Positions 1 to 19,922 of a stretch of DNA of 64,000 nucleotides are shown here, piece by piece. The translations under genes were made by a program, and so were the position numbers. The notes under the pieces were generated by a model. That model worked only from the letters and a program-made list of their open reading frames with translations. It ran no database searches and had not been told where the DNA came from. Source of the stretch: Streptomyces sp. NBC_01244 (lineage in GTDB: Bacteria; Actinomycetota; Actinomycetes; Streptomycetales; Streptomycetaceae); assembly GCF_035987325.1 (NCBI RefSeq), contig NZ_CP108488.1:4898001-4962000 (forward strand). The letters are read 5' to 3'. How positions within the stretch are numbered: the first letter of the stretch is position 1; each line of letters begins with the position of its first letter.

Positions 1-3000
1 GGCGAGTTCCCCCACGTGAGGGGCGCGGAGCATCGACCAGTGGTCCCCGCTCACTCCCCGGACCGTCAGGCCGCCCGGGTACAGGCCGCTGATGTCGCGG
101 CGCAGGAGCTCCGCCCCGGACGCGTCCACCCCGACCTTCAGCACCACGGCCGGGCAGCCGACCGGACGCGGCCGGTACCGGGAGAGCACCCGGAACTTGT
201 CCATCAGGAGACCGCGCAGGGCGGGGTTGCGCCGGGCCTGCGCTCCGACCCGGCCGATGCCCAGCACCGCGCTCGCCATGAGGCTCAGGTGCCCGAGGAC
301 GAACTCGGGGTCGGAGCCGATGGTCCGGCCCGCGCGGCCGGGTACGTAGGCGTCGAGGCACACGAGCATGTCGACCCGCTCGCCCCTGGCGGCCAGTTGG
401 AGGGCCATCTCGTGGGCCACGACGGCGCCGAAGGACCAGCCGCCGAGGGTGTAGGGGCCCTCGGGCTGGGCCTTCAGCAGCGCCTGGAGGTGGTGGGCCG
501 CGGAGGCCTCGACGGACATCCGTGACGAGTTCGCCACCTGCGGTTCGAGCCCGTGGACCGGGCGCGCGGTGTCCAGGCTCGCGGCCAGGGCGCGGTAGCT
601 GAGGGAGGATTCGGCGGCGTCGGCCACCAGGAACAGGGGCCGTCCGGTGCCCTCCTTGAGGACGACGGCGCCCGTGGCGGGCGCCGAAGCGGCGGTGCCC
701 CGCTGCTGCTCGGCCAGTTCGAGCAGGTGCCCGAAGGTGGGCCCGCGCAGGAACTCGGCGGCCGATACGACGACTCCCGCCTTCTCGCGAAGCTGGGTCA
801 TCAGGTTCAGCACCATCAGGGATTCGCCGCCGAGGGCGAAGAAGTCGTCCTCGGCGGACGCCGAGGACACGCCCAGCGCCCGGCACCACAGCTGCTCGAC
901 CTGCCCGCGTACGGGCACCGTCCGGTCGGCCGCGGGCGTACGGCGCTGCGTGCGCGCGACCTGGGTCGCCTGGCCGGCCTGCGGGTCCTGAAGGGCGAAG
1001 GGGTGGCCCGGCAAGGAGCACAGGAAGGGACGCTCCCCGGTGCCCGCCAGCGTTTCCTCCACGAGGTCCAGGCCGTGCTCCCACAGGGTTCCCAGCGCGC
1101 GCAGCAGCCCGCGCTCCCCGTCCTCGGGCCTGCCCAGCATCGGCACGCTCGCGTACGAGGGGTCCCACTCCCCGCGGAACCGCAGGGCGCCGAGCATGGT
1201 GCTGCCCGGCCCGAGCTCGATGAACGTGTCGCAGTCCGAACCGAGCAGGGTCTTCATGCCGTCGTCGAGCAGCACCGGCCGGCGTACCTGCGCGGCCCAG
1301 TACGCGGGATCGCACACGGCTTGGGGGTCGGCCCAGTCGCCGGTCACGTTCGAGACGAGGCGCAGGTCGGGAAGGTGGGTGCGGGTGGCGCCGATCAGCT
1401 CGGTCAGCCGGTCGGCGACGGGGGCCTGGATGTCGCAGTGGGCGGCCCGGTCCACGTTCAGCGGACGCAGGTCCAGGCCGGTGAGGGCGTCGCCCTCCAG
1501 AAGCCGCGTCATCTCCCGCGCGGGTCCGGACAGCACCACGCCACCGCGGCTGATCATGGAAACGGCGATCCTGCCGTCCAGGGGCACCCGGCGGGCCACC
1601 TCGTCCAGGGGGGCGTTGACGGCCACCATCCGGCCGGGCTCGGTGGCGCGCAGCCCCTGGGCCCGCTCGTAGACCAGGACCGCGGCCTCCGTCGGGGACC
1701 ACACCCCGGCGAGGGCGGCGGCGGCGTACTCGCCGACGCTGTTGCCGAACAGGGCGGCGGGCTTGATGCCCCAGTCGCCCAGCTGGCGGCCGAGCGAGTA
1801 GCCGATGGCGAACAGGCCCACCTGCTGGTGCGCCCAGTCGTCGAACCACTCGCGCGGTGCGCCCGCCTCGGTCACGATCGGCGACAGGTCCACCCCGTAG
1901 GTGTCGCGGACGAACCCGCCGATCTCGTCGAAGCAGGAACGGAACTCCGGCAGCAGCCGGTGGGCCGCCGCACCGGCGGCGTGCCGCAGCACTCCGTGCC
2001 CGGGGAAGAGGAACGCCACCTGCGACAGGGACCTGGCGGCGGCGGGCCGCGGCGCCTCGCGCAGCAGCTCCGCGGCCCGGGCCCGGTCCTGTGCGACGAA
2101 GGCCTGACGGTGGCCGTAGCCCCGCCGGGAAGCGAGCGCGCGGGCGGTCTGTGCCAGGTCCGGGGCGTCATCGGCCTCCAGGCGGGCGGCCAGGTCCCGG
2201 CGCAGTCGGGCGAGCGCGTCGTCGGACGCCGCCGACAGGGTGAGCACGGGCGGCCGGGGCCCGGCGGCGGGCTGCTCCCGGTCGGGGGCGGCCTGCAGGA
2301 TGACGTGCGCGTTGGTGCCGCCGACGCCGAAGGCGCTCACCGCGGCCGTGGGGGTTCCGCCCTCGGGCCAGGACCGGGTCTCGGTGCACACCCGGAACGG
2401 CGAGGAGTCGAGGTCGAGCAGGGGGTTGGGGCTGGTGAAGTGGAGGGTCGGGACGAGTTCCCGGTGCTCCAGCATCAGCACCGTCTTGATGAAGCCCGCG
2501 ACACCCGCGGCCGCGCTGGTGTGGCCGATGTTGCTCTTGACCGCGCCCAGCCATGTCGTGGGGTCCCCTTCGCGGGCCTCGAAGGCGTCCGTCAGCGCGG
2601 CCACCTCCACGGGGTCGCCCATCGGGGTCGCCGTGCCGTGGCACTCGACGTAGTGGATTTGCTGGGGTGTGACGGCGGCGACCTCGTGCGCGCGCCGGAT
2701 CACCTCGCTCTGGCCGGGGATGGACGGGGCGGTGAAGCCCAGCTTGTCGCCGCCGTCGTTGTTGAGCGCCGAACCGCGGATGACCGCGGCGATCCGGTCG
2801 CCGTCGCGCAGGGCGTCCGCCAGGCGCTTGAGGACGACGACCCCGACGCCCTCGCTGGGGATGGTGCCGGCGGCCTTCGCGTCGAAGGGACGGCAGTGGC
2901 CGTCGGGCGACAGGATGCTGCCCTGTTCGTGGAGGTAGCCCCACTCTCCCGGCGGCGACACCGCCACCCCGCCCGCGAGGGCCGCGTCGCATTCGCCGCC

Positions 3001-3585
3001 GCGCAGCGCCTGGGCGGCCATGTGGATGGCGGTGAGCGAGGTGGAGCAGGCCGTCTGCACGGTGACCGCGGGGCCCCGCAGGCCGAGCTTGTAGGCGACC
3101 CGGGTGGCCACGAAGTCCTTCTCGCGGCTGACGACCCGTACCAGCGGGCTCAGATCGTCCCCGGAGTCCAGCAGCGTCCGGTCGGAACCGGCGTACACGC
3201 CGATCCGGCCGGAGAAGCGGCCCGGGTCGATGCCCGCGTCGTCGATCGCGGTCGAGGCGCATTCGAGGAACACCCGCTGCTGCGGATCGATGTGCGAGGC
3301 GTCGGCCCGGTTGTACCGGAAGAACGTCCAGTCGAACATCCGGGAGCCTTCCAGCACTCCCTTGGCCCCGACGAACTCCGGACGCCGTACGAGGTCCGGG
3401 TCCGCGCCCTTCGCGATGAGGTCGGCGGTCTCGAAGTGGGTGATCCCCTCGACTCCGCCGCGCAGCAGCTCCCAGAACTCCCTTACGTCGGCGGCGCCGG
3501 GGTAGCGGCACGCCATCCCGATGACGGCCACCGCGTCGTCCGCGGCCCTGCGGGCCGTCTCCTTCTCCTGTGCCGGGGTGCTCAC
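1..3585 (-). CDS. Type I polyketide synthase, KS-AT-ACP-TE, cut at the left edge
   Basis: The frame is open from a GTG at 3585, which overlaps the stop of the NRPS gene (GTGA), down to base 1, giving 1195 codons without a stop. The ketosynthase has a TACSTS active site (Cys180), HGTATPMGDP and NIGHTSAAAG. The acyltransferase has GNSVGEYAAA (Ser616), in which the usual His before the nucleophile is Asn. An acyl carrier follows (LGGESLM, Ser922), then a thioesterase (GWSFGAV, Ser1051). There is no ketoreductase or dehydratase, so one unreduced extension followed by release is expected. Being last in the leftward operon, after the PCP-C-A-PCP protein, it most likely extends and releases the peptidyl chain. 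The missing 3' end probably holds only the last part of the thioesterase. Domain calls are firm; extender-unit choice (malonyl or methylmalonyl) was not determined. Confidence 0.93.
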   Translation of the reverse strand, partial: MSTPAQEKETARRAADDAVAVIGMACRYPGAADVREFWELLRGGVEGITHFETADLIAKGADPDLVRRPEFVGAKGVLEGSRMFDWTFFRYNRADASHIDPQQRVFLECASTAIDDAGIDPGRFSGRIGVYAGSDRTLLDSGDDLSPLVRVVSREKDFVATRVAYKLGLRGPAVTVQTACSTSLTAIHMAAQALRGGECDAALAGGVAVSPPGEWGYLHEQGSILSPDGHCRPFDAKAAGTIPSEGVGVVVLKRLADALRDGDRIAAVIRGSALNNDGGDKLGFTAPSIPGQSEVIRRAHEVAAVTPQQIHYVECHGTATPMGDPVEVAALTDAFEAREGDPTTWLGAVKSNIGHTSAAAGVAGFIKTVLMLEHRELVPTLHFTSPNPLLDLDSSPFRVCTETRSWPEGGTPTAAVSAFGVGGTNAHVILQAAPDREQPAAGPRPPVLTLSAASDDALARLRRDLAARLEADDAPDLAQTARALASRRGYGHRQAFVAQDRARAAELLREAPRPAAARSLSQVAFLFPGHGVLRHAAGAAAHRLLPEFRSCFDEIGGFVRDTYGVDLSPIVTEAGAPREWFDDWAHQQVGLFAIGYSLGRQLGDWGIKPAALFGNSVGEYAAAALAGVWSPTEAAVLVYERAQGLRATEPGRMVAVNAPLDEVARRVPLDGRIAVSMISRGGVVLSGPAREMTRLLEGDALTGLDLRPLNVDRAAHCDIQAPVADRLTELIGATRTHLPDLRLVSNVTGDWADPQAVCDPAYWAAQVRRPVLLDDGMKTLLGSDCDTFIELGPGSTMLGALRFRGEWDPSYASVPMLGRPEDGERGLLRALGTLWEHGLDLVEETLAGTGERPFLCSLPGHPFALQDPQAGQATQVARTQRRTPAADRTVPVRGQVEQLWCRALGVSSASAEDDFFALGGESLMVLNLMTQLREKAGVVVSAAEFLRGPTFGHLLELAEQQRGTAASAPATGAVVLKEGTGRPLFLVADAAESSLSYRALAASLDTARPVHGLEPQVANSSRMSVEASAAHHLQALLKAQPEGPYTLGGWSFGAVVAHEMALQLAARGERVDMLVCLDAYVPGRAGRTIGSDPEFVLGHLSLMASAVLGIGRVGAQARRNPALRGLLMDKFRVLSRYRPRPVGCPAVVLKVGVDASGAELLRRDISGLYPGGLTVRGVSGDHWSMLRAPHVGELA

Positions 3586-6500
3586 TTGGTCACGGCCTTC
3601 GCTACGAGGAGTACGACGCCGGCCGGGGTGGGGGAGAGCAGCAGCGCGCGCAGCTTCAGCGTCACGCCCAGCCGTTCCTTGACCAGCCGGATCAGCTGTA
3701 CGGCGCCCAGTGAGGTGCCGCCGCAGGCGAAGAAGTCGGTGTCGGCGGCGATCGCGTGCGCCTCGCCGTCCGAGCGGCCGCCGGTGCGCTCGATGGCCTC
3801 CGCGAAGAGGGCCGAGACCTGCGCCAGTACGTCCTCGGCCGCCGACCGCTCGACCGCCGTGGCGGCCGGGGCCGACCGGACGGCCGGCCCGGCGACCGCG
3901 GCGAGGGCCTTGCGGTCGACCTTGCCGTTGGGCGTCAGCGGGATGTTCTCCACGAGCGCCCACAGCGTCGGCACCATGTAGGACGGCAGCGTGCCGGAGA
4001 GCAGGTCGCGCAGTTCGCCCGTGCCGAGCTCGGTGCCCGGCTCGCTTTCCGGCCCGGTGCGCGGGGTGGGGACGACGGCCGCGACGAGCCGCTTCTCGGC
4101 GCTGTTGTCGCCGGTGACGACGACCACCGAGTCCTTGACCTGCGGGTGAGCCTTCAACGCGTCGGAGATCGCGCTCAGTTCGATGCGGTAGCCGCGGAGC
4201 TTGACCTGGTCGTCGGCGCGGCCGAGGTAGGCGAGGCGGCCCTGCGTGTCGAGACGTACGACGTCACCCGTGCGGTACAGCCGCTCCTGGACGTCGGCCG
4301 AGAAGTGGCCGAAGCTCCGGGCGCTCTCCGCCTCGTCGCCCACGTAGCCGTCGGCCAGTCCTTCGCCGCCGGTGTACAGCTCGCCGACCGCACCGGGCGG
4401 GACCAGGCGCCCGCGCGCGTCGAGTACGTACACCCGGGTGCCCGGGACCGGTGTGCCGATGGGCAGCGGTCCGCAGACGTCCTCGGGCCGGCGCACCGTG
4501 TGCGTGGTGGTGAAGGTGGTGTTCTCGGTCGGTCCGTAGCCGTTGGTGACGACCAGGCCGGGATGGCGGGCGAGTGCGCGTGCGGCGTGGTCGTGCGGGA
4601 CGACGTCACCGCCCGTCAGCAGCTGCTTCAGCTTGCCGAAGGAGGCGGGGGCGAACTCCTCGACCAGCCGGAAGAGGCCGGCGGTCAGCCAGGCGACCGT
4701 CACCTCGCGTTCGAGCAGGAACGTGCCCAGTTCGGACGGGGAGGGCAGCGCGTCCGCCGGGTACACCTCCAGGGTGGCGCCGGTCAGCAGTGCGCCCCAC
4801 AGCTCCAGGGTGGAGGCGTCGAAGGCCAGCGGCGAGAGCCGGAGCATGGTCTCGCCCGGCCCCGTCCGGACGTATCCGGCCTCGTGGACGAGCCGGATGA
4901 CGGCGCGGTGCGGAACGCCGACGCCCTTCGGTTCGCCCGTGGATCCGGACGTGAAGGCCACGTAGGCCTGCCGTGCCGGGTCCGTCTTGGGCAGATCGAC
5001 CGGCTCGAGCGGCTCGAGCGGCTCGACCGGCTCGAGCGGCTCGACCGGCTCGAGCGGCTCGTCGGCCGCGGGCGACCACGAGGCGTCCCAGGTGGCGGCG
5101 AGCGTGACGCCCCGCAGCCCCTCGTGCCCGGCCGCCGCGGGGGAGACCAGCGCCGCGGCCGGTGCCGCCTTCGCGACGATCAGCCGGGTGTGCGCGGGGG
5201 GCAGGCTCAGGTCCACACCGACGTAGGCGGCGCCGGCGGTGAGGATGCCCAGGACGGCGACCGCCTCGGCGACGGACCGCTCGACACCGATCAGCACCGT
5301 GTCGCCCTGCCGGACCCCGGCCTCGCCGAGCAGGCGGGCCTGCTCGGCGACGGCCCGCGCCAGCTCCGCGTAGGTCAGCTCGACCGATCCGTCGCGGACC
5401 GCGACCAGGTCGGGGAAGCGCCGCGCCGTGTCCCGGAACATCTCGTCCAGGGAGGTGACGGGGAAGTCCTCGCGCACGGCGTTGACCGAATCCAGCAGAG
5501 CCCGGCGCTCGCCGGACAGGCAGCGCACGTCTTCCAGTACGAGGTCGCCACCGGTGGCCAGCCGCTCGGCGGCCGCCCGGAAGTCCGCGATGAAACCGAC
5601 GGCTTCGGCCTCGTTCCACACCGCGGTCGCGTACTCCACGTGGCCGGCGAGCGAGGGCTCGGCCCGGCCGATCAGCAGGGTCAGGTCGAACTGCGCGCCG
5701 CCGCCGTGGCCCTCCTCGATCCGCAGGTCCAGCGGACCCGCGGCCAGGCGCTGCGGCACGAGCTGGTCGTGCATGCCGAAGCACACCTGGACGAGGGGGT
5801 GGCAGCCGATGCTCCGCTCCAGGCCGAGGCGGGCGACGAGCTCCTCGAACGGCAGCCGGCCGGCGTCGATGCTCAGCGTGAGGGAGCGCTGCACCGAGCG
5901 GAGGTAGTCCGCCGCCGTCGCGTCGTCGTCGATGTCGATCCGGACGGGTACGAGGTTGCCCGCGACCCCGACCAGGCGCTCCAGCTCGTTGCTGCCGCGC
6001 CCCAGCAGGGGCACGCCGACGAGCAGGCTGCGCGAGCCGGTCGTCCGGCTCAGGGTCAGGCCGAAGGCGCCGAGCAGCAGGGCGAAGGGGGTGATGCCGA
6101 GTTCGCGGGCGCGCCGGGTGACCGCGGCGCTCGCGCCGTCGCCGAGGTCGACCGGGGTACGGGAGCCCGCGGCGTCCTGGACGGGGGGCCGCTGCCGGTC
6201 GGCGGGCAGTTCGAGGACCGTGGGGACTCCGGCCAGGTGGCCCGTCCAGAACCGGGCCTGCTCGTCCCACAGGCCCCCGGCCCGCTCGGAGTCCTGGATG
6301 CGGATGAGCTCGCTCAGCGGGACGCCGGGCCCGAAGGCGGTGGGAGCGCCGCCCGCGAGTTCCTCGTAGCGGGCGAAGATCTCCTTCAGCACGAGACCCA
6401 CCGACCAGCCGTCCAGCACCATGTGGTGGGCCGTCAGTACGAGGGCGCTGCGGCCGGCCGGATGCGTGAAGTGCAGGAACCGCACGGCCGGGGCCGCCGT

Positions 6501-7088
6501 CAGGTCGAACGGACGGCGGGACTCCACCTCGGTGGTCCGGCGGACGTACGCCTCGAAGGCGGCCGCTTCGCCGTCGTGCGTGAAGCCGGTGAACTCGGGG
6601 GCGTGGTCGGCGAGTACCTCGCGGACCACGCCGTCGTCGCCTTCGGCGAAGACGGTCCGCAGCCCCTCGTTGCGCGCGACGGTCGCGTCGACCGCGGCAC
6701 GCAGCAGGCCGGGCTCCGGCTCTCCCGCGTCGGCGAAGGCGGTGAAGACCAGGTTGTACGGAGAGCCGCCGGTGATGCTCTCGATGAGCCACATGCCGCG
6801 CTGGGCGTGCGAGAGCCCCTTCAGCGCGGCGTCCGAGGGGGCGGGGGCCGTGGCGGGTACCGGCCCGTCCGCGGGAGCGGCCTCGGCCCCGCCGAGGACG
6901 GCTGCCAGCGGCTCGCCGCCGAGCAGGGACTTCACGGATATCTTCAGGCCGAGCTGTTCCCTGGCCATGGCCTCCAGGCGCATGGCACGGAGCGAGTCCC
7001 CGCCGAGCTCGATGAAGCTCCGCGTTCTGAAACCCGTAGTGTCCGTACCCACGCCCAGAATGGCGGAAGCAAGATCATCAAGCGTCAT
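3582..7088 (-). CDS. Non-ribosomal peptide synthetase, PCP-C-A-PCP
   Basis: The protein has 1168 residues. It begins with a carrier domain (LGGDSLRA, Ser32), then a condensation domain (HHMVLDG, His221-Gly227), an adenylation domain (TSGSTGEPKG, FDASTLELW from residue 756, YGPTENTTF, YRTGD, NGKVDR) and a second carrier (CGGTSLGA, Ser1126). Aligning the adenylation pocket by eye to GrsA PheA gives D-A-L-W-L-G-G-T-F-(K). This differs from the published valine code DAFWIGGTFK by two conservative changes, so valine is inferred. An acidic proline repeat (PLEPVEPLEPVEP) sits just before core A3 and is encoded by a 9-bp tandem DNA repeat. The gene overlaps the downstream PKS by 3 bp and follows the C-PCP gene by 60 bp, so one transcript is likely. 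An N-terminal PCP directly after an upstream C-PCP protein is unusual. Confidence 0.95.
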   Translation of the reverse strand: MTLDDLASAILGVGTDTTGFRTRSFIELGGDSLRAMRLEAMAREQLGLKISVKSLLGGEPLAAVLGGAEAAPADGPVPATAPAPSDAALKGLSHAQRGMWLIESITGGSPYNLVFTAFADAGEPEPGLLRAAVDATVARNEGLRTVFAEGDDGVVREVLADHAPEFTGFTHDGEAAAFEAYVRRTTEVESRRPFDLTAAPAVRFLHFTHPAGRSALVLTAHHMVLDGWSVGLVLKEIFARYEELAGGAPTAFGPGVPLSELIRIQDSERAGGLWDEQARFWTGHLAGVPTVLELPADRQRPPVQDAAGSRTPVDLGDGASAAVTRRARELGITPFALLLGAFGLTLSRTTGSRSLLVGVPLLGRGSNELERLVGVAGNLVPVRIDIDDDATAADYLRSVQRSLTLSIDAGRLPFEELVARLGLERSIGCHPLVQVCFGMHDQLVPQRLAAGPLDLRIEEGHGGGAQFDLTLLIGRAEPSLAGHVEYATAVWNEAEAVGFIADFRAAAERLATGGDLVLEDVRCLSGERRALLDSVNAVREDFPVTSLDEMFRDTARRFPDLVAVRDGSVELTYAELARAVAEQARLLGEAGVRQGDTVLIGVERSVAEAVAVLGILTAGAAYVGVDLSLPPAHTRLIVAKAAPAAALVSPAAAGHEGLRGVTLAATWDASWSPAADEPLEPVEPLEPVEPLEPLEPVDLPKTDPARQAYVAFTSGSTGEPKGVGVPHRAVIRLVHEAGYVRTGPGETMLRLSPLAFDASTLELWGALLTGATLEVYPADALPSPSELGTFLLEREVTVAWLTAGLFRLVEEFAPASFGKLKQLLTGGDVVPHDHAARALARHPGLVVTNGYGPTENTTFTTTHTVRRPEDVCGPLPIGTPVPGTRVYVLDARGRLVPPGAVGELYTGGEGLADGYVGDEAESARSFGHFSADVQERLYRTGDVVRLDTQGRLAYLGRADDQVKLRGYRIELSAISDALKAHPQVKDSVVVVTGDNSAEKRLVAAVVPTPRTGPESEPGTELGTGELRDLLSGTLPSYMVPTLWALVENIPLTPNGKVDRKALAAVAGPAVRSAPAATAVERSAAEDVLAQVSALFAEAIERTGGRSDGEAHAIAADTDFFACGGTSLGAVQLIRLVKERLGVTLKLRALLLSPTPAGVVLLVAKAVTK
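4996..5060. repeat. 9-bp tandem repeat inside the adenylation domain
   Basis: About seven imperfect copies of cggctcgag or cggctcgac lie here. On the minus strand they encode alternating LEP and VEP units in the loop before core A3. Copy number could vary between strains without breaking the frame because the unit is a multiple of three. Confidence 0.85.
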
Positions 7089-7148
7089 TGGTTCACTCTC
7101 CGGTGAGGAAGGTGGCTACGGCCCGCGCGTCGCGGGCCGTAGCCCTGG

Positions 7149-8768
7149 TCAGCCCTGGCCGCCGGCCCGTACCGCGCCGATCAGGCGGTCACGGGCGCTG
7201 CCGCCGGAGCCGGCCGCGGCGCCCGCGGCCGGGGCGGCGAGCAGCTCGGCGTGTCCGCGTACCGTTCCGGCCCGGAAGATGTCCATCGTCTTGAGGGCGC
7301 GGCCGGAGGTCTGGGTCAGACGCTCGACGAGGACGATGAGGAGCAGCGAGTCGCCGCCCACATCGAAGAAGCTGGCGTCATCGGCCACTTCGTCGATCTT
7401 GAGGATCTCCTTCCACAGGGAGCGCACGAGCTCGATGCGCGCCTCGGGGGTGGAGACATCCACGGCGGTGGCGGACGGGTCGGACACGGTTTCCTCCAGG
7501 GAGTGGGAGAGGGAGAGAGCGCTGCGCCGCAGGTCCGAAAGGAATCCGGCGACGGAGTCGCGCGCGTACAGGGCCTGCGTGTAGTCGACGGAGAGTTCCA
7601 GCCGGCGACGGCCGGACTCCTCGTTCAGGCAGACGAAAAGACCGAGGTCGTACTTCATGTGCAGCGACGGCAGCGGCTGGAGCCGGCCCACGACTCCGGG
7701 CGCCAGCTCCATGTCCTTCGGAACCTCGGCCATGTTGACCAGCACGGCCGACAGGGGCGGCCAGATGGCATCGCGTTCCGGCTTGAGCGCGGCCGTCACG
7801 GCGTCCAGGGGGACGTCGCCGTCCATGAACGCTTCCATCGCGGAGATCCGCGCGGTGCGCAGGAGCTCGCGCCAGGTGGTGGTGTCGTCGAGCGACACCC
7901 TGATCATGACGGTGTTCATGAACATGCCGATGGCCTCGGCGACGGCCGGATCGGACCGGCCGGGCCAGCCGAAGGCGAAGAGGAAGTCCCGCTGGCCGCC
8001 GGTCCTGGCGAGCGTCCCGGCGAGCAGGGCGACACCGGCCATGAACGGCGTGCAGCCTTCCTCGCCGGCTGCCGCCAGGAGGGCCTCGGTGAGCTCCTCG
8101 TCGAACCGCGTGGCCAGGGTGGCCCCGGCCAGGGAGGTGTCGTCGGTGTCCCGGCGGAACGGCACGTCCACCGCGATGGGGGCCCCGGCCAGCCGCTCGA
8201 CGACGTCCGGCAGGCGGTCGGCCAGCTCGTCGGCCGCCAGCATCGTGACGACCTCGCTGGGGTGCGGCGGCGAGCTGAGCACGGGCTCGAGTCCGGCCGC
8301 CGACGCCCGGTAGACCGCGGCGATCTCGGCCATGAGGAGGCTGCGCGACCAGCCGTCGCAGACGATGTGGTGCACGGTGAGGACGAGCAGGGTGGACTGC
8401 TCGAGGCGGATCACTTCCGCCCGGACCGGCGCCTCGGTTCCGAGGTCGAAGGGCGTGTAGCACAGGAGCTCGACCAGCCGCTCCAGCTCCTCCCGCGACC
8501 ATCCTTCCGCCGCGGCGTCGATGAACCCGGCCTCGGCCGGCGCGCCGTCGGTGCGGTACTCGATCCTGCGGTGCTCGATGTCGAGCCGGAACAGGGACCG
8601 CAGGGCCGGATGCCGGCCGAGCACCCGCCGGACCGCCGCGACGAGCAGGTCGTGGTCGACGTCCCCGGTGAATTCCATGACGGTGGGGATGAGGCTGGTG
8701 GGCCGGAGCTGCTCGACCTGGTCGAGGACCCACAGCCCCTTCTGCGCGGGATTTGCTTCGTACCACAC
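7149..8768 (-). CDS. NRPS condensation-carrier didomain (C-PCP)
   Basis: The 539-residue protein has a condensation domain with HHIVCDG at residues 133-139 and a C-terminal carrier domain with GGDSLLL (Ser474). No adenylation domain is present, so its carrier must be charged in trans, either by the A domain of the next gene or by an enzyme outside the window. It lies 9 bp downstream of the P450 and upstream of the PCP-C-A-PCP gene. The N-terminus (residues 1-20, with NPAQKGLWVLDQ) is the usual C1 region, so the domain is complete. It may join a starter acyl or aminoacyl group to the chain. Its product-level role is inferred. Confidence 0.92.
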   Translation of the reverse strand: MWYEANPAQKGLWVLDQVEQLRPTSLIPTVMEFTGDVDHDLLVAAVRRVLGRHPALRSLFRLDIEHRRIEYRTDGAPAEAGFIDAAAEGWSREELERLVELLCYTPFDLGTEAPVRAEVIRLEQSTLLVLTVHHIVCDGWSRSLLMAEIAAVYRASAAGLEPVLSSPPHPSEVVTMLAADELADRLPDVVERLAGAPIAVDVPFRRDTDDTSLAGATLATRFDEELTEALLAAAGEEGCTPFMAGVALLAGTLARTGGQRDFLFAFGWPGRSDPAVAEAIGMFMNTVMIRVSLDDTTTWRELLRTARISAMEAFMDGDVPLDAVTAALKPERDAIWPPLSAVLVNMAEVPKDMELAPGVVGRLQPLPSLHMKYDLGLFVCLNEESGRRRLELSVDYTQALYARDSVAGFLSDLRRSALSLSHSLEETVSDPSATAVDVSTPEARIELVRSLWKEILKIDEVADDASFFDVGGDSLLLIVLVERLTQTSGRALKTMDIFRAGTVRGHAELLAAPAAGAAAGSGGSARDRLIGAVRAGGQG

Positions 8769-8777
8769 GTGGCATTC

Positions 8778-9977
8778 CTACTTACGGAGTCGTGCCGTGA
8801 TGGGCACATGCTTGTAACCGGACGCGAAATTCGAGATCAGCCGTTCGGGCTTGCCGGCCAGCCGGAAATCCTCGTAACGGCCCAGCAATTCCTCGAAGAG
8901 GATGCTGATGGTGACCCGGGCGACGCTGTGGCCCACGCAGTAGTGCGGCCCGATTCCGAAGGCGAGGTGCTTATTGGGCTTGCGGCGGATATCGAAGGTG
9001 TGGCTGTTCTCGAAGACCTCTTCGTCACGGTTGGCGGCGCCCAGCCAGGCGACGACCGCGTCTCCGGCGGATATCTTCGTGCCCCGCACCTCGGTGTCCC
9101 GCGTGGCATACCGCAGAATGTGGTTGACCGGAGAGGCCCAGCGCAGCGCCTCCTCGTAAGCCGTGGTGTGCACCTCCGGGTGGGCCGCCCAGTCGGCCAG
9201 CACATCGGTTTCCGTGAATTCGGCCATCACGAAGGTCGGCGCGTGCGGCGTGGTCACGTTGGCACCGAGCAGCAGGCTGTAGCAGTTCGCCACGATCTCG
9301 CTGGCGGACATCAGCCGGCCCTCGAAGCGCGTGGAGATCAGCACGCTGAGCAGGTCGTCGCCAAGGTTCTCCCGGCGGTGGCGCATGAGGTCCTGGAAGT
9401 ACCCGAAGAGCTCCCGGTGGGCCGACTTGAGCGTGGCCTCCTTGCCGCCCTCGTCCTGGAACTCCGGGTCGTCGGCGGCGATGCACACGGTGGTGAGGCG
9501 GCTGAGCCAGGCCCAGTCCTCCTCCGGCAGGCCCATCATCGTGCCGGTGACCGACATGGGCAGCCCCAGCATGGCCGCGCCGAAGTCGAAGGAACCGCCG
9601 TCGCCGAGCGGTTCGAGCAGGTCGACGACCTTGGGCCGGATCATCTCCCGCTGGCGGTCCACGGCCCGGACGGCCAGGGCCTTCTTCAGCCGGGCCTGCC
9701 GTTCGGTGTGCCGCGGCGGATCGGTGACGGCGAGCTGCTGGCCGCCGGCCGGATCATCCGTGCCGAGGAGATCGAGAAGGGTGCCCCGCTCGGAGGTGAA
9801 AGTATCGGTGTCGCGCAGGACCAGGTCCGTATCGGCGTACTTCACGACCGACCAGAATCCGCGCTCTTCGTCCACCTGGTGCCAGCCGAGGCCGTCCACC
9901 TCGCGCATTCGGCGCCAGATTTCCTGCGTGTTCCCGTCGCTGTAGAGATTCGGGTCGATGAGATCGGCGGATCCCAT
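8778..9977 (-). CDS. Cytochrome P450 of the NRPS-PKS cluster
   Basis: The 399-residue soluble P450 carries the heme loop FGIGPHYCVG, a K-helix EALR and the C-terminal beta region expected for a bacterial class I enzyme. The I-helix reads GANVTTP where most P450s have AGxET or AGxDT, so the acidic proton-relay residue is replaced by Val while the Thr is kept. This suggests specialised chemistry or a substrate that supplies the missing function. It is the first gene of the leftward operon, 9 bp from the C-PCP gene, and probably oxidises a carrier-bound amino acid or the released product. The ferredoxin at 11224 is the likely electron donor. No strong Shine-Dalgarno sequence precedes the ATG at 9977. 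Confidence 0.93.
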   Translation of the reverse strand: MGSADLIDPNLYSDGNTQEIWRRMREVDGLGWHQVDEERGFWSVVKYADTDLVLRDTDTFTSERGTLLDLLGTDDPAGGQQLAVTDPPRHTERQARLKKALAVRAVDRQREMIRPKVVDLLEPLGDGGSFDFGAAMLGLPMSVTGTMMGLPEEDWAWLSRLTTVCIAADDPEFQDEGGKEATLKSAHRELFGYFQDLMRHRRENLGDDLLSVLISTRFEGRLMSASEIVANCYSLLLGANVTTPHAPTFVMAEFTETDVLADWAAHPEVHTTAYEEALRWASPVNHILRYATRDTEVRGTKISAGDAVVAWLGAANRDEEVFENSHTFDIRRKPNKHLAFGIGPHYCVGHSVARVTISILFEELLGRYEDFRLAGKPERLISNFASGYKHVPITARLRK

Positions 9978-10729
9978 GTCGACCGGGCATCCGGACGTAC
10001 GACGAGTTTCTTGGGTGGAGATGACCGAATCCTTTCACTAGGCGCCGGAAACGGCCGGTGAACCGGACTGGCCGGCCTCTGCGGTCGCAGCATGACCGGA
10101 CTCTACGGTCGGCCGATTGACCCGAGAGAGGACTGGCAAGTAGATGCCACCCGGCGGTCCGCGGAGCCCGGCCGAGCCAACTCCCCACCGCGCCCACGGC
10201 CTGGCAATTCGCGGCGGACGGCACGGGAACCGGCCTCCACGGTCCCTTCGGAAGCCCATTGACAACTTTCTCGCCGTGCCTACAAGATTTCGCTCGACCC
10301 GCAGCCCGGCATTCCCCGAGCGCCCCCGAGCGTCGGCCTTCCACCCGGACCCGGCGGACGGTTCGCCGCTCCTCGGCGTCGCCTTCCGACAGGCCACCCC
10401 CATCGCTTCGAGCGGAGATTCCCCGTGCATGACGACGACCAAGAGGCAGGGCAGACCCGCCAGTCCGCAGACGGCACGCACCGGATGGAGACGTTCGAGC
10501 GCCCGGCCGCCCGTACGCCCTTCCGTTCCCACCACCGGACCGGACACACCCCCGACGGCGTCGGCTGCGGCAGCAACGACCCGCTCTCCTGGGGGCTCTG
10601 AACAACGCCGGGCGGGTCAGCCGCCCGGTTCGGCAACCGCGCACCCACGGCCCCCGGTACGGCGATCCCGTGCGAGGGCAGGGGACTTCACCGAATCTCA
10701 CATCGCATCACCGTCGAGGAGAAACCGAA
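9978..10729. promoter_or_regulatory. Divergent intergenic region of the biosynthetic cluster
   Basis: This 752-bp gap separates the leftward P450 operon from the rightward genes. I found no convincing coding region: the open frames here lack Shine-Dalgarno sites and family motifs. It should hold promoters for both directions and any pathway regulator sites; one candidate promoter is listed separately. Confidence 0.6.
10259..10288 (+). promoter_or_regulatory. Candidate housekeeping promoter for the rightward genes
   Basis: A perfect TTGACA (10259-10264) is followed after 16 bases by TACAAG (10281-10286), or after 18 by CAAGAT. It reads towards the gene at 10730 and would leave a leader of about 430 bases. 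The -10 match is only moderate. Confidence 0.45.
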
Positions 10730-11212
10730 GTGGCCGTCCAGGAAGAACTCTTGGGGACCGCCGATACCGCCGTCGTCGACCCCCTCTCGCTGTACCGGAT
10801 CGCCGTCGGCCACACACCGAAGGCCGTGGCCCTGCGGGACGCGGTGCGGACGGGCAGGCTGCGCCTGGTCACACCCTCCGTCGCCTTCGCCGTCGCCTGC
10901 GCCATGCGCAACTGCTGGGACGAGGAGTGCACCCAGGCCCACCAGGGCGGCACGGGCGTCCCGCTCCGGAAGTTCCAGGAGGGCGGGGGCGTGGAGATCG
11001 TCGACCTGAGCCCCGCGGACACGGTCTCCGCCGGACAGCTGTACGCCGGCTGTTCGGACCGCAGGGTCGTGGGCCCGGAGGTCCTGGCGGCCTGCCACTC
11101 CCTCCTGCTCGCCACATCGCGGCGCTTCCCGCTCGTTTCGGCGGCACGTGCCGCCTACTGCTACTCGGCCCTCGCTGACGTGGGGACGAGCTACCGCATA
11201 GACCTGATCTGA
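10730..11212 (+). CDS. PIN-like protein of unknown function in the biosynthetic cluster
   Basis: The GTG start is preceded by GAGGAG at 10713-10718, which supports this start over the one 60 bases upstream. The 160-residue protein has the outline of actinobacterial PIN-domain proteins: VVDPLSL near residue 17, a central LVTPSVAFAVAC helix, VEIVDLSPAD, and a final LLLATSRRFPLVSA strand. Several positions that are acidic in active PIN nucleases are Cys, Ala or Ser here, so nuclease activity is doubtful. The gene starts the rightward operon and is followed after 11 bp by ferredoxin. It may be regulatory or structural. The family call rests on pattern only. Confidence 0.75.
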   Translation: MAVQEELLGTADTAVVDPLSLYRIAVGHTPKAVALRDAVRTGRLRLVTPSVAFAVACAMRNCWDEECTQAHQGGTGVPLRKFQEGGGVEIVDLSPADTVSAGQLYAGCSDRRVVGPEVLAACHSLLLATSRRFPLVSAARAAYCYSALADVGTSYRIDLI

Positions 11213-11223
11213 GGAACAGCAGA

Positions 11224-11547
11224 GTGACCTACGTAATCGCCCAGCCCTGCGCGGACATCAAGGACAAGGCCTGCATCGACGAATGCCCGGTCGACTGCAT
11301 CTACGAGGGCCGGCGGTCCTTGTACATCCAGCCGGACGAATGCGTCGACTGCGGTGCCTGTGAGCCGGTCTGCCCGGTCGAAGCCATCTTCTACGAGGAC
11401 GACACCCCCGAGGAATGGCAGGGCTACCGCGAGGCCAACGCGGGCTTCTTCGACGACCTCGGCTCGCCCGGCGGCGCGTCGAAGCTGGGCCTGATCGAGC
11501 GCGACCACCCCCTCATCGAGGCGCTGCCCGTGCAGACGCCCGCCTGA
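11224..11547 (+). CDS. fdxA: Seven-iron ferredoxin (3Fe-4S/4Fe-4S)
   Basis: The 107-residue protein starts with GTG after GAGGAAC. It has a first cysteine set in CADIKDKACIDECPVDC and a second complete CxxCxxCxxxCP set (CVDCGACEPVCP). The length and the tail beginning DDTPEEWQGY are those of the FdxA family of actinobacteria. It lies between the PIN-like gene and the thioesterase in the biosynthetic cluster and most likely passes electrons to the P450 at 8778-9977. A general housekeeping role is possible because many Streptomyces genomes have several copies. Confidence 0.95.
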   Translation: MTYVIAQPCADIKDKACIDECPVDCIYEGRRSLYIQPDECVDCGACEPVCPVEAIFYEDDTPEEWQGYREANAGFFDDLGSPGGASKLGLIERDHPLIEALPVQTPA

Positions 11548-11559
11548 GGGGGAGCAGAG

Positions 11560-12315
11560 ATGTCACCGTCACCCTCGGCCTGGCTCAAGTACCTCAATCC
11601 GTCCGGCAGTACGCCCGACCGTGCTCCCCAGCTCGTGTGCTTCCCGCACTCGGGAGGCGCGGCAAGCGTCTACCGTCCCCTGGCCCGCGAACTCGAGGGG
11701 GACGCTCAGGTCGTCGCCGTGCAGTACCCGGGACGCCAGGACCGCCACGAGGAACCGGTCATCACCGACCTGCACCAGCTGGCCGACCGCACCGCCGAGG
11801 CGCTGCGCCGCAATCCCGTCGATGTGCCGCGCGTCTTCTTCGGGCACAGCATGGGCGCGATCCTCGCGTACGAGGTCGCCCAGCGGCTCGGCGACGAGGG
11901 CCCGCAGGCACTGATCGCCTCCGGCCGCCCCGCCCCCTCACGGGTCCGTGTCACCACGTCGTACCTGCTGGACGACACGGCGCTCGCGGACCAGGTCGTC
12001 CGGCTCGGCGGTACGGCGGCCGAGCTGCTGGAGCACCCGGAGATGCGTTCGCTGCTCCTGCCGCTGATCCGCGGCGACTACCAGGCCAGCGAAACCTACC
12101 GGCACCGCGGCGACGCACCACTGAGCTGCACCCTCGTCGCCCTGGGCGGCGACGCGGACCCGGTGGCGACCTTCGACGACCTGAGCGCCTGGTCCCCGCA
12201 CACCGTGGGCCGGTTCCGGCAGGAGACCCTCACCGGCGACCACTTCTACCTCCAGCACCACTGGCCCGAGGTCGCGGACCTCGTCCGCTCCGTCGCGCCG
12301 GTACGGAGCAGCTGA
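11560..12315 (+). CDS. Type II (editing) thioesterase
   Basis: The 251-residue alpha/beta hydrolase has GHSMGA for the nucleophile Ser, the aspartate region GGDADP and the catalytic His in TGDHFYL. The start FPHSGGAAS is typical of stand-alone thioesterases of NRPS and PKS clusters, which remove stalled or wrong acyl groups from carrier domains. A GGGGGAG Shine-Dalgarno precedes the ATG. It sits 12 bp after ferredoxin and 2 bp before the phosphopantetheinyl transferase, so these are probably one transcript. Confidence 0.95.
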   Translation: MSPSPSAWLKYLNPSGSTPDRAPQLVCFPHSGGAASVYRPLARELEGDAQVVAVQYPGRQDRHEEPVITDLHQLADRTAEALRRNPVDVPRVFFGHSMGAILAYEVAQRLGDEGPQALIASGRPAPSRVRVTTSYLLDDTALADQVVRLGGTAAELLEHPEMRSLLLPLIRGDYQASETYRHRGDAPLSCTLVALGGDADPVATFDDLSAWSPHTVGRFRQETLTGDHFYLQHHWPEVADLVRSVAPVRSS

Positions 12316-12317
12316 TC

Positions 12318-13100
12318 ATGGCGTCCGCCATGGCGCCGGCGATGGTGATGGCGCCGGCGATGGCCGAGGCATCGGAGTTCGGCTTCCGAGAGCGGCCCGA
12401 GGCCGTCCGGCGCCGCATTGCCGCGGACACGCGGGCCGGGCTGCCGTCCCTGTGGACCGTGGACGCGGCGCGGCACGGGGCGGCCGCCGCGAGGCTGGCT
12501 CCCGGCGTTCTCGGCGAGGAGGAGCTCGGGCGGGCGGCCCGCTTCGCCGGGAGCAGGACGCGCCGCTGCTTTCTCGTCGCACACGTGGCCCTGCGCCTGC
12601 TGCTCGGCGCCCGCCTGGGAACCGGGCCCGGCGCCGTCCGTCTGGTCCGGGAGCCCTGCCCCACCTGCGGCGGCCCGCACGGCCGCCCCGCGGTGGACGG
12701 CGCGGGCACGCACTTCTCGCTGTCCCACAGCGGCGATCTCGTGCTGGTCGGGATCGCCGGCACACCGGTGGGCGTGGACGTGGAGGAAGTGCCGGCGCTG
12801 GACCTCGCCGTCGGCACCTCCACGCTCCTGCACCCCGCCGAGACCGCGGAAGTGGCCGCCGCACCGGATCACGTCAAGCCGAGGGCCTTCGCCCGGGCCT
12901 GGGTGCGCAAGGAGTCCTACCTCAAGGGCCTCGGCACCGGCCTGTCCCGTGATCCCTCGCTCGATTACGTGGGCGCCGGGCGGCTGCCCGCGCCGGGCCC
13001 CCCGGGCTGGGTCCTGGAAGATGTGCTGGTGCCCCCGGGCCACGTCGCGGCGTTCGCCGTCCGTGCGCCCGGCCACAAGTCGAAGCTGCGGTCGAAGTGA
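12318..13100 (+). CDS. Sfp-type 4'-phosphopantetheinyl transferase
   Basis: The ATG at 12318 follows the thioesterase stop by 2 bp and yields 260 residues. The protein has FSLSHSGDLVLVGI, the metal-binding GVDVEEV and the WVRKESYLKGLG motif of the Sfp group. It would attach phosphopantetheine to the carrier domains of the neighbouring synthases. The first 15 residues are an Ala-Met-Pro repeat (MASAMAPAMVMAPAMAEAS) with several possible internal starts, so the true start may be later. Confidence 0.95.
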   Translation: MASAMAPAMVMAPAMAEASEFGFRERPEAVRRRIAADTRAGLPSLWTVDAARHGAAAARLAPGVLGEEELGRAARFAGSRTRRCFLVAHVALRLLLGARLGTGPGAVRLVREPCPTCGGPHGRPAVDGAGTHFSLSHSGDLVLVGIAGTPVGVDVEEVPALDLAVGTSTLLHPAETAEVAAAPDHVKPRAFARAWVRKESYLKGLGTGLSRDPSLDYVGAGRLPAPGPPGWVLEDVLVPPGHVAAFAVRAPGHKSKLRSK

Positions 13101-14269
13101 GGATGCGTCGCGTGATCTCCGAAGAGAACGTCACCCCGTTCCGGATCGACATCCCCCAAGCCGATCTGGACGATCTCCACGAACGCCTGGATCGCACCCG
13201 GTGGCCGGACGAGATCCCCGGCTCGGGCTGGGCGTACGGAGTTCCGGGCGGGCACCTGAAGGAACTGGTGCGGTACTGGCGGCACACATACGACTGGCGG
13301 GCCGCCGAAGCCAAGCTGAACGAATGGCCGCAGTTCACCACCGAGATCGACGGGGCGCACGTCCACTTCGCGCACATACGGTCTCCGGAGCCGGACGCCA
13401 CCCCGCTGCTCATGACCCACGGATGGCCGGGCTCGATCGTCGAGTTCACCGACGCCGTCGGCCCGCTCACCGACCCGGCCGCCCACGGCGGCGACCCGGC
13501 CGACGCCTTCCATCTGGTCCTGCCGAGCATCCCCGGCTTCGGCCTGTCCGGGCCGACCCGGGAGGCGGGGTGGGAATTCCGGCGCGTCGCCGCGGCCTTC
13601 GCCGAGCTGATGAGGCGGCTCGGATACGAGCGGTACGGGGTCCAGGGCGGCGACTGGGGCGCGGCCATCTCCCGCGAGATCGGCCGCACGCGGCCCGAGG
13701 TGATCGGCGTCCACCTGAATCTGATTCCGAACGCCTACATGGCACGGGAACCGGAACCGGCCGACCTGCTGGGCCTGTCCCCGGAGCAGGCCGCGCGCAC
13801 CCGGCTCTCCTGGGAGCGGTTCAAGGAATGGGCCCGCGACCGGCAGGGGTACGCGGACATCCAGTCCACCCGCCCGCAGACCCTCGCGTACGGCCTGACC
13901 GACTCGCCCGTCGGCCAGCTCGCCTGGATCGCGGAGAAGTTCCACGAGTGGACGGGCTCTCCCGTCGACCGCGACCTGCTCCTCACGAACGTGATGCTCT
14001 ACTGGCTGACGGCCACGGCGGGCTCCTCGGCGCGTCTCTACTACGAGCGCGCGCACGCCGACTACTGGGGCGCACCGCCCGAGCCGTCGAAGGCGCCCAC
14101 CGCCCTGGCCCACTTCCCGCACGAGAACTTCGTCCTGCTGCGACACCTCGCCGAGCAGACGAACAACATCGTGCAGTGGACCGAGTTCGACCGGGGCGGC
14201 CACTTCGCCGCCCTGGAAGAGCCCGAGTTGCTGGTCGGAGACGTCAGGCGCTTCTTCCGCTCCCGCTGA
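13097..14269 (+). CDS. Epoxide hydrolase family protein
   Basis: The coding region opens at GTG 13097, overlapping the previous stop, though ATG 13103 or GTG 13112 are equally possible. The first 110 residues form the epoxide hydrolase N-terminal domain (DLDDLHERLDRTRWPDEIP). An alpha/beta hydrolase core follows, with HGWPGS at the oxyanion hole, the nucleophile Asp in GGDWGAA and the catalytic His in GGHFAALEEPE. It is last in the rightward operon. If it belongs to the pathway, it may open an epoxide made by the P450 or hydrolyse an ester; this is inferred from position only. Confidence 0.92.
   Translation: MRMRRVISEENVTPFRIDIPQADLDDLHERLDRTRWPDEIPGSGWAYGVPGGHLKELVRYWRHTYDWRAAEAKLNEWPQFTTEIDGAHVHFAHIRSPEPDATPLLMTHGWPGSIVEFTDAVGPLTDPAAHGGDPADAFHLVLPSIPGFGLSGPTREAGWEFRRVAAAFAELMRRLGYERYGVQGGDWGAAISREIGRTRPEVIGVHLNLIPNAYMAREPEPADLLGLSPEQAARTRLSWERFKEWARDRQGYADIQSTRPQTLAYGLTDSPVGQLAWIAEKFHEWTGSPVDRDLLLTNVMLYWLTATAGSSARLYYERAHADYWGAPPEPSKAPTALAHFPHENFVLLRHLAEQTNNIVQWTEFDRGGHFAALEEPELLVGDVRRFFRSR

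Positions 14270-19394: not shown

Positions 19395-19922
<528 letters not shown>

Follow-up and report, generated by a model that had tools for sequence, protein, structure and literature searches.

Gene content and extent of the cluster

The window analysed here is a stretch of 64,000 nucleotides from Streptomyces sp. NBC_01244 (G000:C1:4898001-4962000; genome of 10.0 Mb in 3 contigs), and its left end holds part of a cluster of nonribosomal peptide synthetase (NRPS) and polyketide synthase (PKS) genes. We tentatively favor reading this cluster as a member of a mobile NRPS-PKS family that encodes a small split-module assembly line, in which a condensation and peptidyl carrier protein (C-PCP) without an adenylation (A) domain would be loaded by a shuttle, followed by a valine module and one PKS module. 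The whole cluster occupies G000:C1:4886025-4912269 (26.2 kb). An earlier interpretation made from the letters of the window (hereafter the sequence-only reading) had named nine genes with their domains, and these are indeed present, though the PKS gene is cut by base 1 and is not complete in the window. It had also proposed extending the sequence to the left, and this yielded nine further genes over ~12 kb, down to window position -11975.

Limits of the cluster were set by the gene content common to other genomes. Nine loci of the family were compared, namely a close group (our own locus and those of genomes G348, G196 and G286) and a sister group (G223, G320, G043, G239 and Actinosynnema pretiosum), together with two distant loci, which are the two fetched out of seven distant matches. 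Genes in the fetched stretches were picked by a simple GC-frame script. On the right, the cluster ends with the epoxide hydrolase gene at window position 14269, common to all three close relatives; on the left, it ends with an XRE regulator gene at window position -11975, common to two of the three. The features are listed below from left to right, where genes left of base 1 carry positions in stretch L009 (window coordinate = L009 position minus 19000). The Pfam scan covered 16 of the 18 cluster proteins, the other two being the ferredoxin and P0024.

L009:7025-8320, minus strand, XRE-TPR regulator, left limit (Pfam)
L009:8759-9385, plus strand, 208-aa protein (no Pfam match)
L009:9312-10652, minus strand, major facilitator superfamily (MFS) protein, MFS 2 (Pfam)
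L009:10658-11941, minus strand, homoserine dehydrogenase, hom (NF004976)
L009:11964-14429, minus strand, start codon chosen by hand, stand-alone A-PCP (Pfam; code DVRHVGVVDK)
L009:14426-15223, minus strand, P0024, a 265-aa NcmC homologue without the catalytic His (sequence and structure search)
L009:15220-16254, minus strand, P0019, NAD-dependent epimerase-like enzyme (Pfam)
L009:16259-17602, minus strand, cytochrome P450 b (Pfam; 407 bits to 6kfw)
L009:17599-18945, minus strand, MFS exporter 1 (Pfam)
~3585 leftwards across base 1 to L009:18932 (window -68), minus strand, PKS of ketosynthase (KS), acyltransferase (AT), acyl carrier protein (ACP) and thioesterase (TE) domains, without ketoreductase (KR) (Pfam)
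3582..7088, minus strand, NRPS PCP-C-A-PCP with Val-like A domain (Pfam and A code)
7149..8768, minus strand, A-less NRPS module C-PCP (Pfam Condensation and PP-binding)
8778..9977, minus strand, cytochrome P450 a (Pfam p450)
10670..11212, plus strand, conserved 180-aa protein (no Pfam or NCBIfam match)
11224..11547, plus strand, ferredoxin (cysteine motifs read in the translation only)
11560..12315, plus strand, P0013, type II thioesterase TEII-1 with GHSMG motif (Pfam Thioesterase, 178 bits)
~12318..13100, plus strand, 4'-phosphopantetheinyl transferase (PPTase; Pfam ACPS)
13097..14269, plus strand, epoxide-hydrolase-like alpha/beta hydrolase (EH; Pfam EHN, 144 bits, and Abhydrolase_1)

Both parts of most interest, the dedicated homoserine dehydrogenase and the NcmC homologue without its His, are encoded left of the window.

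Synthase core and adenylation codes

Active-site motifs are present in the KS, the AT (GNSVG), the TE (GWSFG), both C domains (in C-PCP, HHIVCDG with GGDS), the carrier domains and both P450s. Reading frames of the cluster genes are open, and the gene set is real and apparently intact. The order C-PCP, PCP-C-A-PCP, KS-AT-ACP-TE is kept in all nine loci compared. In each of them the A domain of PCP-C-A-PCP carries the Val-like code DALWLGGTFK, in agreement with the valine-like unit that the sequence-only reading had predicted; the single unreduced extension it had foreseen also fits, as the PKS has no KR match by Pfam.

The stand-alone A-PCP shows two codes, DFWSVGMVHK in the three sister loci that have this gene and DVRHVGVVDK in all four close loci. 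All codes were taken from the sequence motifs around them, with the tenth residue assumed to be Lys, rather than with a trained predictor. DFWSVGMVHK stands in the section of PMC12283262 on Thr-activating domains, and the same source gives DVWHLSLVDK for Ser and DLKNVGSDVK/DLKNLGTDVK for homoserine. Of these, the Ser code comes closest to that of the close group as read here, and neither homoserine code matches it. We also considered the N-terminal piece of A-PCP as a degenerate C domain; blastp showed no significant similarity to the C domains of the cluster itself. At the AT motif, close-group loci read RAAHC; of the five sister loci, three have RAFH, one QASH and one LAAH. Because this motif varies between loci, the extender unit may differ within the cluster family.

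Distribution and conservation of the cluster family

A search with C-PCP (E <= 1e-60) across 394 genomes of the same family found matches in 15. Eight of the 394, our own included, have it as a separate protein of at least 54% identity, and seven have it within a larger protein at 37-46% identity. A search of genome contigs gave one clear C-PCP relative, in Actinosynnema pretiosum (54%), with the next at 33% or less. In the protein database there are 141 C-PCP relatives (E <= 1e-60), the best 120 all at least 50% identical, from Streptomyces, Kitasatospora, Saccharothrix, Amycolatopsis, Actinosynnema, Umezawaea, Lentzea and others; the Val protein PCP-C-A-PCP has 192 relatives there (E <= 1e-200). 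No characterised product is named among the best 120 of the 141 C-PCP relatives or the best 120 of the 192 Val-protein relatives, well in agreement with the sequence-only reading, which did not recognise a known product family. The cluster family is widespread.

Within the close group, the genes from EH to hom occur in the same order in G348, G196 and G286, with the exception of the PPTase gene. This gene has no match in the three close relatives, where the gap between EH and TEII-1 is 25-60 bp versus 782 bp here; a 43% PPTase relative lies beside A-PCP in G043. The genes for the 208-aa protein and the XRE regulator are found in two of the three close relatives and MFS 2 in one. Outside the unit, no predicted gene is common to the four close loci in the fetched stretches, which on the XRE side of G348 cover only ~0.8 kb; the one weak exception is an MFS gene that lies next to the G196 unit and is only distantly related (27-28%). 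Because the same unit sits beside different genes in three other genomes, the cluster looks like a mobile unit.

The sister group shares P450 a, C-PCP, PCP-C-A-PCP, KS-AT-ACP-TE, MFS exporter 1 and P450 b. An aldo/keto reductase is present in all five sister loci (by Pfam in G223 only, by similarity in the rest), and in three of the five, A-PCP, a short-chain dehydrogenase/reductase and a further P450 lie between the NRPS and PKS genes. The G223 cluster is flanked by genes for DisA and a MutY-like protein, and an extracytoplasmic function (ECF) sigma factor gene is nearby (L114:8869-10038, L115:13508-15279). One of the distant relatives, in G203 (L124:8016-18305), combines A-PCP with C-A-PCP-C-PCP and a KS-ACP-reductase in which no AT was matched, and its product appears to be released reductively.

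Probable split module and thioesterases

The stand-alone A-PCP probably serves the A-less C-PCP. TEII-1 is found in all seven loci that have A-PCP and in neither of the two that do not, where TEII-1 was typed by identity and position (beside P450 a, GHSMG motif, 43-100% identical to P0013). Because of this co-occurrence, TEII-1 is the first candidate for an aminoacyl shuttle; it may instead be an editing enzyme. Precedents for such an arrangement exist. In PMC8748450, the A-T (A and thiolation) didomain LgnB feeds the A-less C-T protein LgnA through the type II thioesterase LgnD; PMC10956176 summarises WS9326A and SyrC/CmaE as similar combinations of A-T, A-less module and shuttle, and describes a split C-A0-T/A-T module for bripiodionen. 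A second thioesterase, TEII-2, forms a clade of its own in the thioesterase tree (support 100/99) and is present in all five sister loci and in none of the four close loci. In the close loci, P0024 occupies the stretch between P450 b and A-PCP that corresponds to the place of TEII-2.

P0024, a homologue of NcmC without the catalytic His

P0024 matches NcmC by phmmer at 1.2e-35. Its AlphaFold2 (AF2) model (pLDDT 91) has the alpha/beta hydrolase fold with a four-helix bundle, the four long helices lying at 120-207, and in a Foldseek search NcmC chains took the top four places at TM 0.85-0.87 (0.86, E 1.2e-20), with other proteins reaching at most 0.61 among the matches listed. For the active site, 23 of 44 P0024-family proteins were aligned, of which the row P0146 was dropped because its C-terminus looked out of frame, leaving 22. 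The active-site Cys, Asp and Tyr are kept in all 22 rows. The catalytic His, whose column was identified by sequence position, is present in 2 of 22, versus 16 of 19 further loci of the NcmC family in the genus. Thr is the usual replacement, as in P0024 itself, which has Gly-Thr in place of the His-His of NcmC, and no His column is kept throughout the family (best column 15 of 23). The 19 control rows were drawn from 43 places other than our own; among them, the L160 row is interrupted by a stop, L151 seems to be out of frame around the His, and L143 is closest to P0179 and P0181, the two His-bearing members of the P0024 family. An accident of alignment was considered as the reason for the missing His and was rejected, as 16 of these 19 relatives have it. 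According to PMC10956176, the substitutions C89A, D116A, Y204F and H245N each abolished the activity of the Dieckmann cyclase BpdE. Because its catalytic His is absent, P0024 is probably no ordinary cyclase.

This result bears on the strongest competing explanation, a tetramate pathway. Here C-PCP and A-PCP would form a terminal split NRPS module acting after the PKS, and P0024, as an active Dieckmann cyclase, would release a 3-acyl tetramate, as BpdC, BpdD and BpdE do for bripiodionen. The sequence-only reading had named a cyclised tetramate among its possible modes of release, and a Dieckmann-cyclase homologue does exist left of the window, with the NcmC fold and the conserved Cys, Asp and Tyr. 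The PKS module is unreduced, and A-PCP adjoins the cyclase-like gene in all four close loci and also in genome G681, which parallels the single cassette in which bpdD and bpdE lie by the description in PMC10956176. However, the residue that is essential in BpdE by the H245N result is absent in 20 of the 22 P0024 rows (columns equated by position, with BpdE not aligned), a TE with its GWSFG motif intact already terminates the PKS, and C-PCP is equally kept in loci that have no such cyclase. On balance we consider this pathway unlikely, though it deserves more weight than the other alternatives below.

The two His-bearing members, P0179 and P0181, resemble the G681 locus (L162:12149-17878). That locus has a bripiodionen-like layout, in which a His-bearing NcmC homologue lies beside an Asn-like A-PCP and a type II thioesterase; for the Asn-like reading, the A-PCP code was compared with DATKVGEVGK, given as an Asn code in PMC3547906. 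Because P0179 and P0181 resemble this locus, the ancestors of the P0024 family were probably cyclases that had an A-T didomain as neighbor before they lost the base. A bolder and rather doubtful extension is that P0024 and its family are aminoacyl transferases of a new kind, acting from carrier to carrier, where a Dieckmann cyclase beside an A-T didomain lost its His and became a Cys-based shuttle, which would move homoserine, supplied by a dedicated dehydrogenase free of feedback, from A-PCP to the A-less C-PCP. A Dieckmann-cyclase fold that keeps Cys and Asp without His would in any case be a probe of the role of that His.

In-cluster homoserine dehydrogenase

The hom product in the cluster scores 521 bits against NF004976 (cut-off 205), with its catalytic part conserved, and shares 72% identity with the other copy in the genome, at C1:6376688. 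Genomes of the close group have 2, 2, 2 and 3 hom copies, an extra copy in all four, and hom is single-copy in the three sister-group genomes searched (G043 and A. pretiosum were left out). The cluster enzymes form one clade with support 99/100. Among the four cluster enzymes, residues 1-320 are on average 84% identical and the ACT domain 62%, compared to 87% and 86% among seven housekeeping enzymes, and 76% and 52% between the two sets. The third copy of G196 (L141, G196:C4:6766110-6767342) was left out of these means; it is more diverged (57%) and has a shortened ACT part.

Because the ACT domain is relaxed while catalysis is conserved, the pattern suggests that the in-cluster enzyme supplies homoserine or threonine without feedback, rather than serving as a resistant copy of a target. 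Under the latter explanation, in-cluster hom would be a self-resistance gene and the product would inhibit threonine/methionine biosynthesis. Duplication of a primary-metabolism gene inside the cluster, 72% identical to the other copy and seen in all four close-group genomes, would fit such a role. Nevertheless, a diverged regulatory part next to a conserved catalytic part is what supply would be expected to produce, the pocket of A-PCP, encoded in the same cluster, is of a type for small hydroxy amino acids, and the MFS proteins already provide predicted export. We therefore regard self-resistance as improbable. Literature searches for homoserine dehydrogenase together with NRPS-PKS, P450 and epoxide hydrolase, and together with Dieckmann and biosynthetic gene cluster, found nothing, and a broader search had no mention of homoserine dehydrogenase among the matches listed.

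Proposed pathway

In the split-module pathway that we tentatively prefer, the stand-alone A-PCP would activate a small hydroxy amino acid, with a serine-like pocket in our locus (where homoserine is our guess) and threonine in the sister group. TEII-1, the His-less P0024, or both would then move the amino acid from A-PCP to the A-less C-PCP. PCP-C-A(Val)-PCP would add valine, KS-AT-ACP-TE would add one unreduced C2-type unit, and the TE would release the chain. P450 a and P450 b (with the ferredoxin), the epimerase-like reductase and the epoxide hydrolase are predicted to tailor the product, and the MFS proteins to export it. The second homoserine dehydrogenase may supply homoserine or threonine free of the usual feedback.

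Several points weigh against this pathway. For the thioesterase, the tree leaves the TEII-1 proteins of the close and sister groups as two separate supported groups, and their suggested equivalence rests on identity and position; sister TEII-1 proteins are 43-44% identical to P0013 and TEII-2 proteins 31-39%. Moreover, the type II thioesterase of the bpd pathway is dispensable, its deletion being without effect according to PMC10956176. Two carriers lack an A domain of their own (one in C-PCP, the other at the N-terminus of the Val protein) but there is only one extra A domain, and C-PCP is also present in G239 and Actinosynnema pretiosum without a nearby A-PCP. In G203, C-PCP comes after C-A-PCP and directly before KS, which makes the module order uncertain. 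Homoserine as the A-PCP substrate is a guess from the neighboring hom gene, since DVRHVGVVDK differs from the published code, and P0024 could be a shuttle, a cyclase or neither.

It is also conceivable, though very improbable, that the cluster is decaying and makes nothing, as the loss of a catalytic residue from P0024 might indicate. Against decay, frames are open and synthase motifs intact, the genes that the four close loci have in common retain 56-96% identity though their genomic positions are unrelated, and the His loss is not specific to one strain, being seen in 20 of 22 P0024-family rows. As for a compact nine-gene cluster lying wholly within bases 1-14269, as the sequence-only reading had it, the nine genes do exist, but the idea has practically no chance of being right, given that the PKS gene crosses base 1, that the unit continues leftwards with the same order in other genomes, and that about half of it, including the second A domain (A-PCP), is outside the window.

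Accessory genes and genomic surroundings

P450 a is among the most conserved genes, at 88-96% identity in the close group and 71-75% in the sister group. The ferredoxin (78-91% in all three close relatives) is the likely redox partner of both P450s, and EH is 81-85% identical in G348, G196 and G286. The 180-aa protein is found in the close group only, with 56-79% identity in all three relatives; a search of the Protein Data Bank (PDB) gave one weak match for it (E 0.041). By eye this protein is PIN-like, though no model supports PIN. The 208-aa protein has a LuxR-like C-terminus by eye, without a Pfam match, and is a possible cluster regulator. P0019, the epimerase-like protein, is 76-82% identical in the three relatives and had no match in a PDB search; its family is present in 62 of 392 genomes of the genus (E <= 1e-60), and being so common it says little about the product.

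The cluster lies 15-42 kb from dnaA, whose domain was found at C1:4870041. Its left neighbors are gyrA and a DUF3566 gene, and on its right are a rhomboid gene, the cyclophilin gene ppiA (19395-19922) and ftsW and penicillin-binding protein (PBP) genes. The sequence-only reading was thus correct in placing an NRPS-PKS cluster near the replication origin (oriC). This location is real but is no property of the cluster itself, because the neighbors differ in three other genomes (fetched stretches). A conserved insertion site near oriC was rejected for the same reason, flanking genes differing between genomes.

Comparison with known systems

Literature searches for lactacystin and other named small NRPS-PKS products gave no such cluster by title, and a search for the domain string together with P450 and valine found nothing. 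The closest solved relative of P450 b is CxnD (6kfw, 407 bits), which we take to be the chuangxinmycin P450, a likeness confined to one tailoring gene. Detoxin/rimosamide-like clusters are similar in being small NRPS-PKS hybrids with a branched-chain amino acid, one C2 unit and release by a TE. In the descriptions of PMC12828459 and PMC9503745, however, their PKS lacks an AT (trans-AT) and has a KR, and a dioxygenase is conserved. Membership in that group was rejected: the PKS here has an AT in cis (GNSVG) and no KR match, a Pfam scan of 16 of the 18 cluster proteins gave no such dioxygenase, and P450s are found instead.

Closer likenesses are seen in the split module and the cyclase-like gene. 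P0024 shares with the Dieckmann cyclases NcmC and TrdC the fold, Cys, Asp and Tyr, and differs in the replaced His. The bripiodionen bpd cluster (BpdC, C-A0-T; BpdD, A-T; BpdE), compared by description only, has in common with ours an A-T gene near an NcmC-type gene, a split module, an unreduced last PKS module and a type II thioesterase. In our cluster, on the other hand, the NcmC homologue lacks the essential His, the PKS is a single module that ends in a TE, and the core NRPS is Val-specific. Legonmycin/legonindolizidine (LgnA-LgnB-LgnD), likewise compared by description only, resembles the family in its A-PCP, in an A-less C-PCP gene before C-A-PCP, in a type II thioesterase that co-occurs with A-PCP, and in the Thr-type A-PCP of the sister group. 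Differences are the PKS module that follows here, the P450s, hom and the NcmC homologue, and the serine-like A domain of the close group.

With its threonine versus serine/homoserine loaders, its TEII-2 versus NcmC homologue, and its loci with and without A-PCP, the cluster family offers a natural comparison for studying how amino acids are handed from one separate carrier protein to another, a transfer that PMC10956176 left unexplained for bripiodionen.

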